Source of the DNA: Jaapia argillacea MUCL 33604
Lineage: Eukaryota; Basidiomycota; Agaricomycetes; Jaapiales; Jaapiaceae
Assembly: GCA_000697665.1 (NCBI GenBank)
Contig: KL197795.1
Span: 1-52,444 of the forward strand
Direction of reading: 5' to 3'
Length of the DNA: 52,444 bases
In this document: positions 39,928 through 51,302 of the stretch, in pieces
Position numbering within the stretch: position 1 is the first letter of the stretch
Layout of the letters: each line of letters opens with the position of its first letter
Program-made: the position numbers and the translations under genes
Notes under the pieces: generated by a model
The model's database searches: none
Seen by the model: only the letters and a program-made list of their open reading frames with translations
Told to the model about the DNA's origin: nothing

Positions 39928-42137
39928 CCGGGGGGGAAAGCTGTGACAAACAACTCAACAGACGCGTTCCGTCGCGCTTTCCACTGTGTTCGTAGTTCCC
40001 TAGGATTTTGACCGGCTCCCCGCTTACAGGTCTATGGCTTTGGATCGGAGTTCAGGACAATGGTATGACTTGTGAACTGCGCTTTGGTGTTGGCATTGAC
40101 GAAGCGATCAGGAGAGTGTGGATAATTGTCCCCGAGTGCTTTGGTTGGCTTTGACTACATCATTCGAGCGAATCCATCAGTTCTCTCGAAACTGATAACC
40201 TCGAGTAGTTAATTGACCCACCGCCAAGCTACTTGCACCCTCCACCCTTCCGCACTGCGGACGTTTCTGTTATCAGCAACACAACCCGCATCAACAACTA
40301 AGAGGTTCGAGAATCTCGTTCTCGCCACCCTCGTTACCAAAGGACTCGCGGCAAAAGGCAATCTTCTTCACGGACAACTCGAGGGGACGAAGTCGATACT
40401 AGAGTAGCGGCACCGGAGGACGGATCAACCCAGAGTCAAACACGGGCTGATGTTCGCCTCGGTATTCTCTATCGATGGGGGTTAATGATAGGTCTGTCAT
40501 TTAACGAAGCCGGGAACTTCGCGAGAGCTCACAACGAAGAATGTATTCTTCCCTCTCCGTATATGTTCGACTCGGTACGCTTTGACTGTAGCTACACCAT
40601 CGGGAGCAAACATATCAGTTTCCAGACCGATAACGTCGCATGCTAATGGCAACGGACGTACCACCGTGCTACTCGCACCCCTCACATTTCCAGAATGAAG
40701 ATGCTCTATTGTTAGCGACACGAGAAGCAGGAGGGGCAATCAAGATGTTCGACCTTCTCGTCTTCGCCACACCCGTTCCGAAATGCAGGACACGAGGTGG
40801 TCCTCACATACAGATTAGGGGACGAAGAGGATGTTATAACCACGAAGAGAGCTGAGTACGGACCAGTCCAATCATAATGTAGGGCCTATGCCGACCTCCG
40901 CGTTTCCTTCATCATCGAATAGCCTGGCTGGTTCCATACAATCAGGTCGGGGGCTCGACTCGCGTGGAATGATATCAACGCTGGGGTTATCTGTGGGTCC
41001 ATGGTAAGTCTTTCGTCCATCGATGGGAACTCGTGCGAGCTCACCTCAGCGTAGACTTAGGCCCTCTCTCCAAAGGTATGTCTGTGGTGACTCCAGTCGA
41101 CGCAGGCTACTACACAATCATGGTCGGAGGGGTGAGGAGGTCAGTATTCGCCTGCTTGATTTCGAGCGACACCAGCTGGTCCGAGAGAGTAGAAGTGATA
41201 GTGCCAGGGCATATAGAATGAAGATGAAGTGGAGACGATAGGTTGAGGCACTAGAGCTCTATCCATGGCGCACCATCCACAAACACTAGCCAATGACACC
41301 GTCGACTCGCTCGGGAATGCGAACATCCGGAGAGACCCTATGCCATAGACGCGACTTCTCGATTGAACCCATACCTATCGAATATCGAGGGATATGTGAA
41401 TGGAGGTAGACCCAACCTCGAATAGCCTTAGACCCCCCAAGCCTGACAGTACGCTTTGATATGGCCTCCCAGTTCTCGGTGAATGCGGCTTGAATCGTTG
41501 TTGCGCTCGATGTGTGGTTCGATAGGGAAGCATAACAGTCGACACCGAGATCAAGAGAAATTCAGTTCGTGAGGCGATTCAGAGTACCAGGAGATTACAG
41601 TATATGCAGTAATTTCAGTTCAATTGAAGTGGCCACCCATAATTGCGTGTCACTTTGTGGCGTGCAGGTGTTTGTTGGTGTTAGAATCGGAGGTCATTGG
41701 CACACAATCGTCAACAACGTTTTGATCCGCCCCGACATTGGCGTGATAGCATGCAGAGTCTGGCACGTCGCACCTCTGACCACTTTCTAACTCCACCCAA
41801 CAACTTCATCGCAATTCTTCACTTCCGCCTCCCCTCATACATCTAGCCACACCACGCATTGAGTCATAATTCCCCCCTTCCAACTATACAGCGTATTCTA
41901 AGCATCTCCAACCCTAAGTCGAAGATCACTTTGCCTCCCACATTCGATGTCTCCGTCGCTCGGGAAATCCATGCGGGACTCGCAGGGAGAAACATTCTCA
42001 GGATGAGGTGTGACCGCGTTGTGCAACGAAAGAGTCGGCGGATCTTAGACGGGAGGAGCTGCGTGGTTTCTACCTTCTTTCCTTCGTGTCTCGAGTTCGT
42101 GATACCATTTACCCTCACTCGTATCCCCACTACCTTG
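39928..42137. other. Degenerate region, no confident gene
   Basis: A weak repeat pairs about 40190-40340 with 40615-40790. Scattered short frames look like decayed coding sequence (plus 41033-41221, ending VIVPGHIE; minus 40497-40739, ending SSREVPGFVK). I cannot assemble any of them into a gene or name a family. Confidence 0.3.
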
Positions 42138-42328: not shown

Positions 42329-42501
42329 TTGTCTCGTTCCCATCCGCTGTGGTTGCGGCCCAGCAGGGGAGGTTTTCCGAATGCGGAACATTCGGTGCTG
42401 GGTACGCACCACAACGTCTGGGGCATTTCACTTCAGAGCTCCCCCATTGAGTCACGTTCGGAATTTTTTGTCACGTAGACCTGTTCTCGTCCTGTCGCAT
42501 G
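42329..42501 (+). repeat. Left terminal inverted repeat
   Basis: 173 bp, beginning TTGTCTCGTTCCCATCCGCT. It aligns without gaps to the reverse complement of the right repeat, with about 10 differences, all transitions. Similarity stops sharply on both sides. Confidence 0.9.
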
Positions 42502-42548
42502 CTCTGTAAACATTCCTCTGTCGTGGCGCGTGCTTCCCATATCCGTTA

Positions 42549-45296
42549 ATGTCCCTACGCTGGGAGGACTACTTCCTCAGCGACGAAAATAACGAGGAAT
42601 TGTATGCTTCAGATTCTTCGGATTAAGACTACGCACCATCCCCAACCCCCCGGGCAGAGCCTGGTGAGAATCCCGGTCGCTCGCATCCACCTCCCCACCT
42701 ACACAACACCGAGTTTCGTCGCTCTTCATTGGCAAACGACGAGGTGTTCTCTAAAGTTCGAAAAATTCTTGCTCTCATTGAGGCCGAGGGTCTCAACTTG
42801 ACTATCTTTCTGGATGCAATATTTTGGGGAAATCCACACTGTGTCGATGATCCCCAAGTTAGATATGCTCGAACTGCTCTACTTGTCAGCTCTCAGCTCT
42901 CGGATATTCTACACCGAATGTGGCAGCCTCCGCTATCATCAAGGTCTCATCATTCCCGAGCCAAAGGGGCTCGTGAAACCATTGTCCAGCTAGTACACGA
43001 GTTCGAAGAGGATGCGATGCGACACGAGATGGCAATAATATCGAAACTTTTTCGTACGTCGGCAGATCAGCTTCGAGAGGAGGACCTGACGAACTTCGCA
43101 TATGAGGGTGTATTGAAGGAGGTGAAGGAGGGAGCACCAAATCTGTGGAGAGTGTTGTCGCTCGCTGGCTACACGGCGAAGCAGAGAACTGTCAACTCTC
43201 ACAAGAACCCGGAGATTGTGAGGACTTCCGTCCAAAGCTCAAAGGCCTCACTGACCTACATTATACTCGCAGATCCTGCTCGTCATCGTCGCAATGCTCT
43301 CATACACAATGAGTCACCACAACAACCGCCTTCCGAAAATTTTTGCAGTCTACTTCAAGTCAAGAGGGGTGGCAGGGAGAGCATTCGATTGCCTGCACAA
43401 ATTGGGGCTCATGATGAGCCACAAGTGGACGACAGAGGCCACCGAGGAGATCTCGAAGAATTGTATGAACGAGGTGGTTCGGTTGATGAAGGACCACATA
43501 TGGATCTTCTCGCACGATAACGTTAACATTCTGTTCCGGGTCTACTCACAGCGAGTGGATAACAAGAGCCATTTTGCTTGCGGCACGGCTGCGACAGTTT
43601 TTATCAAGCGTTCCGGATCAATTCTCCCTCCATATGTCAATCATGATATGAAGGCAACATGAGCGTGGGGATTGTATCATGTCCTAACACCGAAGGATAT
43701 TTTTGAAATGAGCTACCAGTCATATCCGCCGTTGGTGAAGCAAATGACTTACCAGGTCCTCCGCTTCCTCATCGAGTCACCTGAATTTGACTTTGGCACC
43801 TATCACGACCGAGACGATCCTCTATTACAACCTGCACCACCTATGCGAGCGCTTCCTTGTGGCGAAGAACACATTACTCTTCAGTACATGCTTGGGACTG
43901 TGGAGATCACAGAAGCTGCATACGAGGGCAATGACAGGCTAATCGATGAGTGGTTTCGGCAGTTGGGGATGAGCTCGATGGAGGAATGGAAGAGGACTGG
44001 GTTGGAGAGGATAATTCCGTGGATCGGCGACCAGCTGACTGTGGATAGGCTACAGGGACTCTACCGAATGCGAAACGACGAGTGCAATTCCTTCGAGCGA
44101 CTTGATTGGTTGGTTCCCGTATTTGGATGGCTCCATCTCCAGATGGCGTTTTCAAACTCCCTCCATCGTCAGTACTTGGGAACACTATCGGGAAGGGGCC
44201 TGAATCAGGCCTTTGAGTTACTCGAGAGGAAGGGCTTGAAGACTGTATCAACATGAGGGCCATTTCATCATGATCTAGAAGAGGCACTTTACCACATTGC
44301 AGAAGCCCACATTCGTGTATGCTGGAAGTTGGTTGGGGGAGTAGGGGACCTTGCAGAATTTTGGAGCCTTGATGCGAAGCAGATCACCAACCTCGCGGTG
44401 AAGCTTGTGAGAGAGCATGCATCTAGTGAGGCCTTGGATAGGATGGATGAAGTCCTTCCAGATATGCGCGACAAAGTTCAGCGCCAGATGATCATGTTCA
44501 ATCGTGATGTACTCCATTACATTGTCCTGAATCAGGCCATCAAGCACGGCGATGTCGGCATCATGGAGAGTATGCTCCCTTTGCTCCTCTTGAGGTTTCT
44601 TGGTGGCAAGAACTACAAGTACACAATTGAAATATTGGAGTTATTACAAGGGTTGTGTCAGGAATGGCCACCTGCTGTCAGGTTTGTGAAGTCGAATCAA
44701 GGCTTCGAACTCACCAGTCTGGAAACTGATCTCCTTATAGAGACTTCGTGAGGGATCACTGTTGGCTTGTAAATAATACAGGGAAGCGGAGTGGATTCCT
44801 CCCCGTTGATACTGCGCAAGAGATGAATATCAAAGACATTAAAGTGAGTGTAGGCTCTGCCTTGGCAAAAAAAGTCCCATTTACGAGGTATCTGAAGGTG
44901 ACACATCGTTCGGAGGGACCGAACATTGATTGGGCATACTTGACAAAGATTCACCCATCTGTTCGTATCATGCGATTGGTGACAGCGAAGGTGGATGGCG
45001 AGCTTGGCCTCCTATCACGAGGGAAGAAGCACTCTGTGCCGCAGAAGCAAAAAGATGTTAAACGGCTTGAAGACACGTATGAAGCGTCACCTGGCATCCA
45101 CGTTTACACACCTGGGAGGAAGATACAATTGAAATGTGACTGCATGCCGGATGTGATAACTGAAGGATGTCTTGTAATGCAGAAGGGGCAGCGTATGAAG
45201 CGATGGCAAGATGGTTGCACTTTCGAAAGATCGACTGGTGAAGATTGGGAGTCAGATATTGTTGGGAGTAGTGATTCTGGCATCGATAGTGAATAA
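42549..45296 (+). pseudogene. DUF6589-family protein, candidate transposase (inactivated)
   Basis: ATG 42549 (MSLRWEDYFLSDENNEELYA) is followed by an in-frame TAA at 42624-42626. The frame then runs through the DUF6589 N-terminal block (VFSKVRKILALIEAEGLNL, RYARTALLVSS). A 57-nt intron (donor GTGAGG at about 43217) leads to MSHHNNRLPKIFAVYFKSRG. In-frame TGAs occur at 43660-43662 and 44254-44256, and a one-base frame change at about 44750. Conserved family blocks are all present: GDQLTVDRLQGLYRMRNDEC, FGWLHLQMAFSNSLHRQYLG, GRGLNQAFELLERKGL, FHHDLEEALYHIAEAHIRVC, GFLPVDTAQEMNIKDIKV and LSRGKKHSVPQKQKDVKRL. The Asp in GDQLTVDRL and later acidic residues would suit an RNase H-like transposase, but that is inference. 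Converging with the helicase inside shared TIRs supports a mobile-element role. Confidence 0.82.
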
Positions 45297-45378
45297 AATT
45301 CTATAGGCATAGATTACGGTATACGAGAATGAAAGCCTTGCAGGGGCCCTCAGACACTACTTACACCTGACTGCAGCG

Positions 45379-48300
45379 TCAATATAAATTTTCAAATTGC
45401 CGGGGCGTAAGTGGTTTCATCCACGTCAATGTACAGCTTGAACTATCATTACAGATTGCCGGCGCATTGAACCACCCATATTTTGAGATGGATGGTGCTT
45501 CGCTAACCGCCGATACCTGATCTGACGAATTCCAGACAAACTAATGAGTGGAAGCAACTGAGAGTAAGGATTCAGACAAAGGGGACTCACCTGCACCCAG
45601 TCTGGTGGCTGGACACGATTGTTGATGGAGGAGTCTGATAGGGCACTATTGGGAACATTTGCAGACCCCGTGTGCATTTCATGTTGCTCCGTTCCGCGGT
45701 TCTCCTTCTCCAACCGTCGCAAATCTCTTCTGCTTTCCTTCCTTTGCTCCTTCTCCAGTTGCTCAGCTTCGTCAACACATGCAAGTACTGCCAAAACATC
45801 ATCGCCATGATCCAGAACCAACATCCATGGTGGATTCAGATCTTCAATGTTTTGGAGAGCTGGATTCAATGCGAGCATTGTAAGTGTCTTGTTGGGTAGG
45901 ATTGCCTCCGATGTGAATGGTGCTGGAGCATGTTTTGATCGTTTCGTGGAATATTGCCATTCTTGAAGGGCGGTGTGGGTATGTTTGAGCCAATCTCCTT
46001 GGCGAATTGATGCGCTGTGCGTGTTTGACCTGGGATGCTTGCCGTTCACATTGATTGAGGTGCCAGCTGGAGTCGATGGTCTGGAAAGTGTAGACTTGGA
46101 GCTATCATGGTCAGACTCAGAGCTGGAAGTTTCCGAACTTTGTTCGCCAATAGTAGGTAAGAGTCCTTCGTCGCAGCAGAACCCCGTGGGTGCTATATGG
46201 GGCGAATCAACAATGCAACGGAAGGTATGCAGATGCCAACTCACCACGGCGACACCAGGGGGGATTATCAAAGTAAACATCAGCAACATCTCATCTACAG
46301 CCTGTGGATTCAATCCACTTCAGCAAACCACTCTCAATTTCCTTTGCCCACTCTGTTTGCTGACCATCAATTGGAGGATCTTGAGCTCCTCCGTCTTGGT
46401 CAGAATCTGCTTCTTCATTTGTGGTCTTCCTCTTCTTTTTCTTTCTCTGCTTCCTGACCGAATTCTCGACCAACAAGAAAGCTCTTGCCTTGATACTCGA
46501 CGACTGACCTGCATGACCTGTGTAGAGGAAAGGAAAGTTTCCGGGTAGAAGGACTTTAGACTCGTAAGCGTAGCCTAGACGTAGCGAGAGAGAGAGAGGG
46601 AAGCGAGTGGGAGACAGCACTCTGTACTCGGTTTAACCATGTACAGGTGTGAGGTATGGGGCTGCGAATCAGGAGTAAAGGCGAGAGGGTTGGCAGCTAG
46701 CAGAACTTTCGAGAGCCAGGGAGCCAGATAGTCGTAGACGAGAGGAGTTAGATCAGATCGCAAGCGCGGAAGTAAATTCCACATGCGTTAGAGTCCAGAA
46801 GGCTTATTCAACCGAGAGCTAATCTTATCGAGATCGAGTTTAAGCAGTAGGTTCAAGTGTTCGAAGGGAGGAATTCGCATTCACACAGAGAGATAGCAGT
46901 AAGCACGGGGGGATAATTTGACAAGGGCCCTCAAAGGTGGGCGGAACCTAAATACAAACTCCCAATGCACCCGCGTGATCTCCGCCAGTGCCTTCACAAT
47001 GGGAAACTAGTTGAGATGACAGAGAGACAGGTAGGGGCTAGTAGAAATAGTGAAAGAATTCGATGTGAAAGAGAGGAGTGGGAGAGTAAGCTAGGAAGGA
47101 AGTGTGCATGTCTGAATCAAACGAAAAAGGAATTACGATCTATGAAATCAAGCATCAGAGTACCATCAAATCCCATACTGTTGGGGCAATTGCTCAGGGA
47201 GAAGATGACTCCCAAGCGATCTAGCTGGGGCAATGCACCGACATCCCAGTCTGACCAACGGGACCCAGCGATCAAGCCCTGGGTTCTCCCCTACTTCCCC
47301 AACAGATCTGGAACTCAACAATAAAGCTTCAACGAGATTTGAATAGGTAGAATGTGGAGGACAGCCGAGACATATGATTGAGTAGAAGGTAAAACGGAAG
47401 CGAAAAGAACGAGAGATAAGATAAGAGAAAATCGACGATCGTGAAGAACAAGATGATAAGATAAAATCCGAACCGAGTCCTCCGACGTGTAGGCAGCACA
47501 TTCGCAAGGGGCTACGCATGGTTTGACAATGGCGTAGGCTTGCATTCTTGTGGCTTTCCGATTCTGGTAGTTAGTCTTCAAGGGCTAGATTTGATTGTGA
47601 GTGTGTTGAAAACGGAATTGATTCTGATTTAAAAGTAAGAGTCTATCATATTTCTACGTGTAGACTGCCCTCTTCTTCCACACCTGCTCTCTGCAACCAA
47701 ACTGTGAGAGATCGCGACACTCCAAACTGGATGACATCCTCAATATTCGAGATATCCACACCCTATCATTGTTTCACCACCAACAAATCGAGAGGGAGCT
47801 CATTGGATGCTCATCATCCCAGCCGCCTCAGTAGCCACTAATATCTCAATATTACCAGCTTGGAACTTTTTGACTATCCACCGTTTCGTGAATGGTTTCC
47901 GCAAGGCATGAAGACAGTCGATGCGAGATCGTAGTTCCACTGGGAAGAGTGAGTGAATATGTTTGCAGAGTGTTTGGGTCAACAGAATGGAGTCAGCAAA
48001 TACTATTGTTTTCTTCATCGACGCGGGTGACTCCAAGCCATTGGTTAGGATGGAATCAAGAGCTGTGTAGTCAGACTTCCCGTTGATATACATCACTCCA
48101 TATGCAACATTCGACTGATCATTACCGAGATTGAGATGGAATGATAGGTCCTTATCTATCAACAAACTTTTCTGAACCTCCTCCAATGCTTGAGGTGTGA
48201 GTGTGGCTGATGTTGCAAGAATTGGCTTTCCAGCTGGGACGAAAGCACAGAGACTTGCCAATTCACCATACTCTGGCCGGAAATCACCACCCCACTGTGA

Positions 48301-48962
48301 TATGCAATGGGACTCATCAACAACAAAACCAATGATGTCGTCATAGAAATCCTTTGAGTTCAGTATTTCACGGAACGCAGAGTGCTTGAGACACATCTCT
48401 GGAGAAGCCAAAATGGCCTGATATTTCTGCTGGAGAATTTTCTATCCAAACCATCAGTAATCATGTGTACAAACGAGTCAAAGGCAGAAGTAAACCCTTA
48501 CCTGATGAAGGCTCGGACACCAGCTTTCGCCGTTGACAGCTTTTGCTGAAATACCCATGTTCCGAAACCGAACGGACTGAGACCATTACCCACTGCCCAT
48601 CCACAGCAAATATTGGTTCTTACCTGATCTTGTTCGAGATTCTTCAGTGGGGAGATGATGACGACCATCTTCCTCCGATCTTGCAGCAGGAGTGGCATGA
48701 CAAAAGGCATCGTTTTCCCTGAGCCTGTGCCAGCTATGAGAGTGCAATCAAGGCCCAGATAAAAGGTCTCCAAGATGTCTACCTGCCAGTCGTATGGGTC
48801 ATAGTGAAATTGTTGGTGGAAGAGCCTTCGAAGGTCCGTCCTTGATTGCTCGGAATCATAGCCAGATTTCTTATTGGCGGCCAAGCGAGCATGCTCAAGG
48901 TTATCATAGGAGAGTTTCTTGTCAGCCTCATGCACCTGAGTACGGGATTCAGAAGTAGCCAT
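45379..48962 (-). pseudogene. RecQ-like DExH helicase of the element (inactivated)
   Basis: Exon 1 (48962-48624) begins MATSES and holds the RecQ Gln motif region (YDWQVDILETFYLG) and Walker A GTGSGKT. Exon 2 (48576 to about 48502) has RFRNMGISAKAVNGESW. Exon 3 (48441 to about 47815) has KYQAILASPEMCL, the DESHCISQWGGDFRPEYGEL box and motif III LATSAT, and reaches LVATEAAGM. The next donor reads ATGAGC, apparently a lost GTGAGC. The following exon, VDISNIEDVIQFGVSRSLTV, stops at WLQRAG (47684). Coding resumes at 46517 as HAGQSSSIKARAFLLVE, giving QRAGHAGQ where motif VI is normally QRAGRAGR. The zinc-region segment reads STGCR-stop-DVADVYFDNPP with a TGA at 46291-46293, then APTGFCCDEG. The C-terminal tail is disordered and coiled-coil-like. 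The 3' end at 45379 assumes one more intron; without it the frame ends at 45426. Confidence 0.85.
46518..47683. other. 1.17-kb interruption of the helicase gene
   Basis: Coding sequence breaks inside helicase motif VI (RAG | HAG) and resumes 1166 nt later. The gap has GT at one edge and AG at the other, so it could be a long intron. All other introns in the gene are about 50 nt, so an intron that took up inserted DNA is likely. The plus frame at 46965-47324 has no motif. TGTTGGGG at 47179 and CCCCAACA near 47300 form a small inverted pair, but they are too close together to be a whole LTR. Confidence 0.55.
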
Positions 48963-49029
48963 CGAGAGGGAAAGGACTGTGTGTTTGTTGATTGCGTTGT
49001 CAGACTCAGACACGTCGTGTGGATGACAT

Positions 49030-49202
49030 CACGCAACAGGACGAGAACAGGTCTATGTGACAAAAAATTCCGAACGTGACTCAATGGGGGAGCTCTGAAG
49101 TGAAATGCCCCAGACGTTGTGGTGTGTACCCAGCACTGAATGTTCCGCATTCGGAAAACCTCCCCCACTGGGCTGCAACCACAGCAGATGGGAATGAGAC
49201 AA
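49030..49202 (-). repeat. Right terminal inverted repeat
   Basis: Reverse-complement partner of 42329-42501, 173 bp, outer end GAGACAA. It ends 150 bp before the ATG of the next gene and begins about 68 bp upstream of the helicase ATG, so it probably contains or abuts the helicase promoter. Confidence 0.9.
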
Positions 49203-49352: not shown

Positions 49353-51302
49353 ATGTCCACTGCCATCGAACTTGTCGGGCTTGTGATCGCTTTTTTCTCC
49401 CTCGTCCTGCATTACGTGTCCTCACCCGATGCCTGCGGCCTGGCAGATAGCACCGCTATCAGCCGGTGGTCACTCAAGACCATTTACAGGTGGGATTATT
49501 TGGACTGGAAGGTCATAGTTCAATATGCTCACCCTGTTCTGACATCTAAAGATGCCATAAACATTCTCATGGTACAGGAAGACCTTTGTGTTGAACGTTT
49601 GCGATCGATTCCAGATGTTAACGTGACAGAGCTATATCAGCTTTCTGATGGATACAGCAGTAGCATGCAGATGAATGCAGTCCCAAAGTTGGTCTTCACT
49701 CTTTGTGGTGCAGAAGACCAGCGCGAGATTCCCCTTGAAGACCTCCCCCGCCATCACTGGACAATAGCGAAGGCGATCGAGAAAGATATGGCACAACGGT
49801 GCTTATCATCGGTTCTGTGCAAAGTGTCGTGGTGTAATCTGATGAACGACATTGGAGTGGACCTTGCATTGGTCCAAAGCACTGAGCTGATCAACGTTGA
49901 TCTGATCCCGTCCTCGCTTAATGCACCGCCTGTACAAATTCACCTGTCCGACCTCATTGACCTCGGTTTGTTGCTTGGTATGAAGGTTGTCGGAGTCGAT
50001 GAAGATAACCACATCCTCACCATGACTGGGAAACACTGTAGTATCACTACCCGTTACTGCAAAGGTGTGGGACAGCTCTCGCGATACTCTGGTATGGCAT
50101 CTCAGGTCCTGCCTATTATTCGAGCAGCTAAGCCGAAGGAGCTTCGCATCGCGATGGATACTGCAGCTGGAATTCTTCAGCTCGGTGACTCCTTCGCGCC
50201 AACATGGGACTGGGGGTATAACTCAGTTGATTTAGTCTTGGGGACTGTATTGGGAAAGGCAGAGGGGGAGGGATGGGAAGAGATCAATATCAAAGATATT
50301 ATGGGGCTGCTTGAAGGTGACTCTGATGTCAAGTGGGGAGGTAAATGGTGATACCCCAAAACACCCTCACCTCGATTCTTGTTTGCCCTAGTATCCAATA
50401 TGGCCGTTGTCAACGCCTTCCCAAATGTGCTCCTGCACAGCTGGACAATAGAGGAGCGACAATCAGCTTGCCAGGCGGCATTCGATCAGATCCATCGCTC
50501 CGTCAAGTTCATTAAGGCCCCACATAACCTATTCCATGCCATTCAAAAGAATGGAGTTGACATACTAGTCATGGGCAATTTCAAGGCCGCGAACAATTAT
50601 GGATGCGAGTATGGGGGTTTGCATAGTTGGTTGTCCACTAACCTTGCTGTATTCACATCACGACTGGCAAGATGCTGGCCTGTGGACGGCATTACAGACA
50701 GTATTCCGATTCTCTCATGCCTCTACACCATTCTCATGGAAGATGCATTGGGCACAGAATGGTGCAAAGTTTACCACCAAGGCGATGTCACTCTGGCAGA
50801 TCAGACTGACTCAGGGGACGAAGAACTTGATTGGAAAATGACGGCCAATTCGCTCCTTTGGATGCAGATTATGATGTTGGATACTTGGATTGGCCGAAAA
50901 GTTGATCTCCTCACCCGACGGGTCTCAGACGAGGTCGCTGTCCCTGCCGATCTCGCTGCCGCAACGACCTGTGCGAACATATCGATGCAGTTGCTGCAGA
51001 CCACTGTGTGGAAGAAGTCTAGAATGGAGTTCGCGAGGGCATATTTAGTTCGATTGGTGGAAGGAGTTGATGGGAATCCTGTCAGTTGCATATCTATGGG
51101 GGTAGGAGATGGGGTAGCCCAACCAACTCTTGGCCCTGCTGGTTGGGAAAACATGCCGTTTGGAAGCCCCGAACACTGGGCGGCTATCGATGCTGTCCTT
51201 ACCATACGCTCGATGCTCCTGGTGTACCAACTCGAGATCATGAATGACTTGTCAGCGTTGCTTCGCCTTCATCGATTCAATCTAGTTGTGCTGCTCGCAT
51301 AG
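49353..51302 (+). CDS. Orphan protein, 632 aa, one N-terminal membrane segment
   Basis: Exons 49353-50340 and 50392-51302 join in frame across a 51-nt GT-AG intron. I choose ATG 49353 (MSTAIELVGLVIAFFSLVLH), because upstream codons run into the transposon repeat. Residues about 5-22 form a single hydrophobic helix (GLVIAFFSLVLHYV), a likely membrane anchor. The rest is globular with no motif I recognise. Landmarks are YLDWKVIVQYAHPV, LGLLLGMKVVGVDEDNHI, a Cys/Trp-containing central region, and a C-terminal part with MQIMMLDTWIGRKVDLL. There are no nonsense or frame lesions, in contrast with the adjacent element genes. A decayed relative of its C-terminal half lies on the far side of the element (42138-42328), so the gene belongs to a family. 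Whether it is cargo or host gene is open. Confidence 0.8.

Follow-up and report, generated by a model that had tools for sequence, protein, structure and literature searches.

The window, by which we mean the whole stretch of 52,444 nucleotides analysed here, contains a pair of long inverted repeats with two genes between them, one coding for a protein of the DUF6589 family and the other for a RecQ-type helicase. The question raised by this locus is whether the stretch is a mobile element that carries its own helicase and, if so, to which lineage it belongs.

The two arms (42329-42501 and 49030-49202) aligned over 173 nt without gaps, at 94% identity (blastn, E 5e-72), and the element measures 6874 bp from end to end of the repeats. 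This alignment, together with profile matches to DUF6589 on the + strand and to the helicase on the - strand, confirmed the arrangement given in the preliminary description, namely 173-bp gapless inverted repeats around two convergent genes. The features are as follows:

42329..42501, + strand: left terminal inverted repeat, beginning TTGTCTCG
42549..45296, + strand: DUF6589 pseudogene, putative transposase, with an acidic N-terminus and a presumed ATG at 42549
43684..45032, + strand: PF20231 (DUF6589) domain, in pieces, including a conserved GD motif whose Asp is D504 in the protein encoded on contig C13
45429..49028, - strand: helicase gene of the RecQ family, with pieces at 48501-49028, 47803-48441, 47649-47762 and 46294-46632, plus a tail at 45429-46319 (from profile matches and shared frames)
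46521..47682, no strand given: dispersed repeat within the helicase gene, 1162 bp, ends TG...CA, 4-bp direct repeat CCTG
49030..49202, - strand: right terminal inverted repeat, ending ...GAATGAGACAA on the + strand

The arms of the window copy differ at 10 positions, all of them transitions. At eight of them, CpG in one arm faces TpG or CpA in its partner; the remaining two form one adjacent CA/TG pair. This is the pattern expected of once identical arms after CpG decay. Decay was also apparent in the DUF6589 gene. The PF20231 profile matched three consecutive pieces of the + strand (3.1e-49, 1.3e-42 and 9.8e-20), and the frame is broken by an in-frame TAA at 42624 and by TGA at 43660 and 44254; two frame changes correspond either to indels or to introns. 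The window copy of the element looks dead. On the - strand, the helicase gave two DEAD matches (9.5e-09 and 7.5e-09) and a Helicase_C match slightly beyond the cut-off (6.6e-05). TIGR00614 (recQ_fam) was the top NCBIfam match for all four helicase pieces scanned, which came from the window contig (labelled C87), C13 and C40; its score stayed under the whole-protein cut-off because the queries were pieces. The top PDB match was RECQ5. The tail piece at 45429-46319 is common to the window copy, C40 and C13.

Sibling copies were sought in the whole genome (43.7 Mb, 95 contigs). This genome yielded 56 hydrophobin matches, against none in 14 control genomes; as hydrophobins are fungal proteins, the host is a fungus. 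A genome-wide profile search returned 23 PF20231 matches, which were grouped into 12 DUF6589 places (C35, C40, C14, C87, C13, C22, C3, C12, C29, C6, C21 and C10). At nine of these, inverted repeats surround both a DUF6589 gene and a RecQ-like helicase:

C87 (window): 173 bp, 94% identity
C13: 206 bp, 81%
C14: 202 bp, 98.5%
C12: 180 bp, 95%
C40: 39 bp, 97%
C3: 264 bp, 97%
C35: 120 bp, 82%
C29: 29 bp, 97% (E 4e-6, the weakest of the nine)
C22: 121 bp, 96%

Repeat length thus spans 29 to 264 bp, and identity 81 to 98.5%. The nine copies lie on nine contigs, three of them (C87, C22 and C29) less than 20 kb from a contig end and six far from ends. Both genes are on opposite strands in every copy, convergent in eight and divergent in one. 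The sole divergent copy, at C35:181927-191251, is also the longest of the nine (9.3 kb). When the genome was searched with the window helicase piece, eight places matched, all eight beside DUF6589; these were the best-scoring candidates among the matches listed, so that distant host RecQ genes may also exist in this genome. With an iterated helicase profile, the fetched stretches also yielded C22, bringing helicase matches to nine of nine copies.

The other three DUF6589 places (C10, C21 and C6) are without helicase. At C10:377955-380497, 72-bp inverted repeats 2.5 kb apart surround a DUF6589 fragment, and this pair is possibly a deletion derivative. Neither a repeat pair nor a helicase was found in the 9.1 kb read at C21, nor was a helicase in the 6.6 kb read at C6, which is cut by the contig start. 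A genome search with the left repeat of the window copy recovered its own two arms and three partial matches at two places. On C20 there was a lone arm-like match, with no partner arm in the 4.1 kb read. On C3, at 126514-126674, lies a 160-bp palindrome without genes, the halves of which match the window inverted repeat at 75-79%; it is possibly a MITE derivative of the same family. Both gene-less matches look like derivatives. Of the repeat-bounded copies reached through DUF6589, C10 being set aside, nine of nine hold both genes.

To what extent do the two genes form one unit? Over the nine copies, pairwise identities of DUF6589 and of the helicase co-vary, with a Mantel r of 0.913 and none of 20000 permutations as high (nine of the 12 DUF6589 places entered this test, C10, C21 and C6 being left out as they have no helicase). 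Identity between copies goes down to 15% for DUF6589 and 21% for the helicase, indicating that the pair has stayed together while diverging deeply. When the open frames of the nine copies were compared all against all (E up to 1e-3), common signal lay in the DUF6589 and helicase blocks; the other common signal came from the opposite strands of these two blocks and from the nested repeat, and no third gene block common to the nine copies was seen when the list was read by eye. Such close co-divergence suggests a need for the helicase in movement; we consider the chances that it is essential to be evenly balanced.

Three copies have an exact 9-bp direct repeat flush with the inverted repeats: C3 (GGGTGGTGG), C22 (GTCTTTCAT) and C14 (CGCTGTGGT, or 10 bp with the first base of the repeat included). 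Assuming equal base frequencies, the probability that 9 bp agree by chance at a given position is about 4 in a million for each. These three elements start with CAGGCTC, TAGTCTC and CAGACTC, and the start of the window copy, TTGTCTC, is alike. No target duplication was found at the other six copies, the window copy among them: at its ends there was no direct repeat of 7-8 exact bases, or of 9-13 bases with one mismatch, within 20 bases, and none of at least 5 exact bases within 12 bases. The 8-bp direct repeat at C29, which lies 17 bases beyond either end of the element, was left out of the duplication count. A clean empty site was not found with the flanks of the window copy or the C22 left flank, the latter having only diverged relatives. 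The flanks of the window copy likewise gave only diverged relatives (67-82%), on C52, and at one place there about 2.4 kb separate two flank-matched parts, versus about 0.8 kb expected. The flanking segments 41408-41732 and 49402-50400 have these relatives at C52:161000-165018 and 181700-191906. Since both flanks have relatives on C52, the element was inserted within a duplicated gene neighbourhood.

Nine repeat-bounded two-gene copies, and the exact 9-bp duplications at three of them, identify the 6874-bp stretch as a DNA transposon, and the proposal of a large transposon carrying its own helicase is upheld on this evidence.

That DUF6589 is the transposase, as had been proposed, is the best inference from these sequences. 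It is reached mainly by elimination, the blocks shared between copies being DUF6589 and the helicase, with no third seen. The acidic triad, which the preliminary description suggested looking for, is not conserved in full in all copies. The C13 gene, an open frame of 737 codons (728 from the first Met), served as reference. D504, within the GD motif, is Asp, and H539 is His, in all 11 copies that have letters there. D333, within an xDN motif, is Asp in 9 of 11; of the other two rows, one has Asn and one is badly aligned. Asp is found at D651 and at D678 in 8 of 9 copies each, and column 613 holds an acidic residue in 8 of 9. Over alignment columns 301-728, no third acidic residue was kept in all copies, none exceeding 8 of 9. 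The conserved acids would suit a DDD/E site without proving one, and are only suggestive. The DUF6589 protein of the window copy, folded as a single sequence of 498 aa with TGA translated as Arg, reached a mean pLDDT of 36, too low for use. PDB sequence searches returned one chance-level match each for the C13 protein (E 0.52) and for alignment A1 (E 0.13), and relatives were not found in the viral contigs or prokaryote genomes scanned.

To which lineage does the element belong? Being a DNA transposon that encodes a DDD/E transposase, AcademH, reportedly so named by Kojima in 2020, has terminal inverted repeats; it occurs in fungi or animals. Here, inverted repeats (nine copies), 9-bp duplications (three of nine), a RecQ-type helicase (nine of nine) and a fungal host were all found. 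According to the text available from PMC10045372, AcademH elements encode a helicase and produce target duplications of 9 or 10 bp, AcademX elements of the same superfamily have a nuclease in place of the helicase and duplications of 3 or 4 bp, and the duplication length is tied to this choice between helicase and nuclease. The elements described here differ from AcademX by their helicase and by the 9-bp duplications at three copies. The available portion of PMC10799480 reports AcademH as a low-copy element of Basidiomycota, Ascomycota and Mucoromycota. As far as the excerpts of PMC6416283 go, most fungal Academ copies have recognisable domains, e.g. PF00270 and recQ_fam, a likeness to our element, and annotations frequently list these copies as host genes. 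The excerpts make no mention of DUF6589, which is a difference. Putative non-autonomous Academ elements are reported in a basidiomycete (PMC8290104, in the part available). The accessible parts of PMC12730594, PMC9674265, PMC12210899 and PMC12810828 hold nothing decisive on the identity of the element.

On this basis, the 6874-bp stretch is very probably an autonomous DNA transposon that has decayed and that belongs to the Academ superfamily, AcademH lineage, a filing made on published descriptions rather than on compared sequences. It follows from the agreement of helicase, duplication length and fungal range with what is published on AcademH. In the partial texts, AcademH resembles the element as a low-copy, helicase-bearing fungal DNA transposon with 9-10 bp duplications, and no difference was found on these points. 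The novelty implied by the preliminary description for a DUF6589/RecQ element is consequently not upheld, a helicase-bearing fungal element having already been named. What may be new is the link itself, between DUF6589 and the AcademH transposase. DUF6589 as a term was absent from the literature searched, where PF20231 appeared only in an unrelated context and which most subscription papers lie outside; the link may already be familiar to Repbase users.

Because the likeness to AcademH is one of descriptions, and DUF6589 is absent from the literature searched, one may ask whether the element belongs instead to a separate superfamily, which would have acquired its RecQ helicase independently and have 9-bp duplications by coincidence. 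Helicase, duplication length and fungal range all agree with the AcademH reports, as far as their available text goes, and we find such a coincidence unlikely. We are just as doubtful that DUF6589 founds a helicase-bearing superfamily of its own, distinct from Academ, with an obligate opposite-strand RecQ pairing. Among named lineages, KolobokH is the other fungal group with a RecQ helicase: in the sections of PMC9587614 available, it is known from fungi alone and encodes this helicase beside the transposase, as in our element. In KolobokH the transposase domain is followed downstream by the helicase, and Kolobok duplications are TTAA (3-5 bp for KolobokP), whereas here the duplications are of 9 bp, none TTAA, and the helicase is on the opposite strand in nine of nine copies. 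Strand alone is a weak argument against Kolobok, given that one rhodophyte Kolobok described in the same sections likewise encodes its RecQ helicase on the complementary strand. A C or D three residues before the conserved His, as in the C/DxxH signature of KolobokH between the second D and the last E, occurred in none of 11 copies, a count that depends on the presumed placement of the catalytic residues. KolobokH was rejected on duplications and strand, and we give it hardly any credence.

The grouping of the two genes could also be fortuitous, host genes such as a subtelomeric RecQ being paired by chance, or duplicated, between accidental inverted repeats. Near-telomere RecQ genes are known in fungi (PMC4522978 and PMC10817607, in their accessible portions), and three of the nine elements are close to a contig end. 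Against this, each of nine contigs has a repeat-bounded copy, and six of these copies are remote from contig ends; three copies have flush exact 9-bp duplications, and both genes diverge jointly. For the siblings, chance pairing is refuted by the inverted repeats, the duplications and the Mantel result, and for the locus as a whole it is extremely improbable. Two other identities were rejected: MuDR/MULE, since the intact C13 protein matched DUF6589 and one sub-threshold family, with no MULE domain (E up to 1), and Helitron, which has neither inverted repeats nor target duplication, both being present here.

The most likely course of the element's movement is the following. DUF6589, acting as a DDD/E-type transposase, would bind and pair the inverted repeats, excise the element and insert it with a 9-bp stagger, and gap filling after this staggered insertion would yield the 9-bp duplications. 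Less certainly, the RecQ helicase, whose gene is on the opposite strand, might act in excision or repair by unwinding the ends or the gapped target, or might assist gap repair. If the link between DUF6589 and AcademH is right, fungal proteins annotated as DUF6589 would be AcademH transposases, and adjoining "RecQ helicases" would be transposon genes and not host repair genes. Gene counts would have to be corrected, and the combination of PF20231, a neighbouring RecQ gene and 9-bp duplications would provide a profile for intact copies.

The window copy later decayed, mainly through CpG loss, and took in the nested repeat at 46521-47682. Counting itself, this repeat gave at least 22 matches across the genome, two of which are inside the C12 sibling element. 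An edge test at its C7 relative gave no duplication. From its features it looks like a solo LTR, a call that we hold softly.
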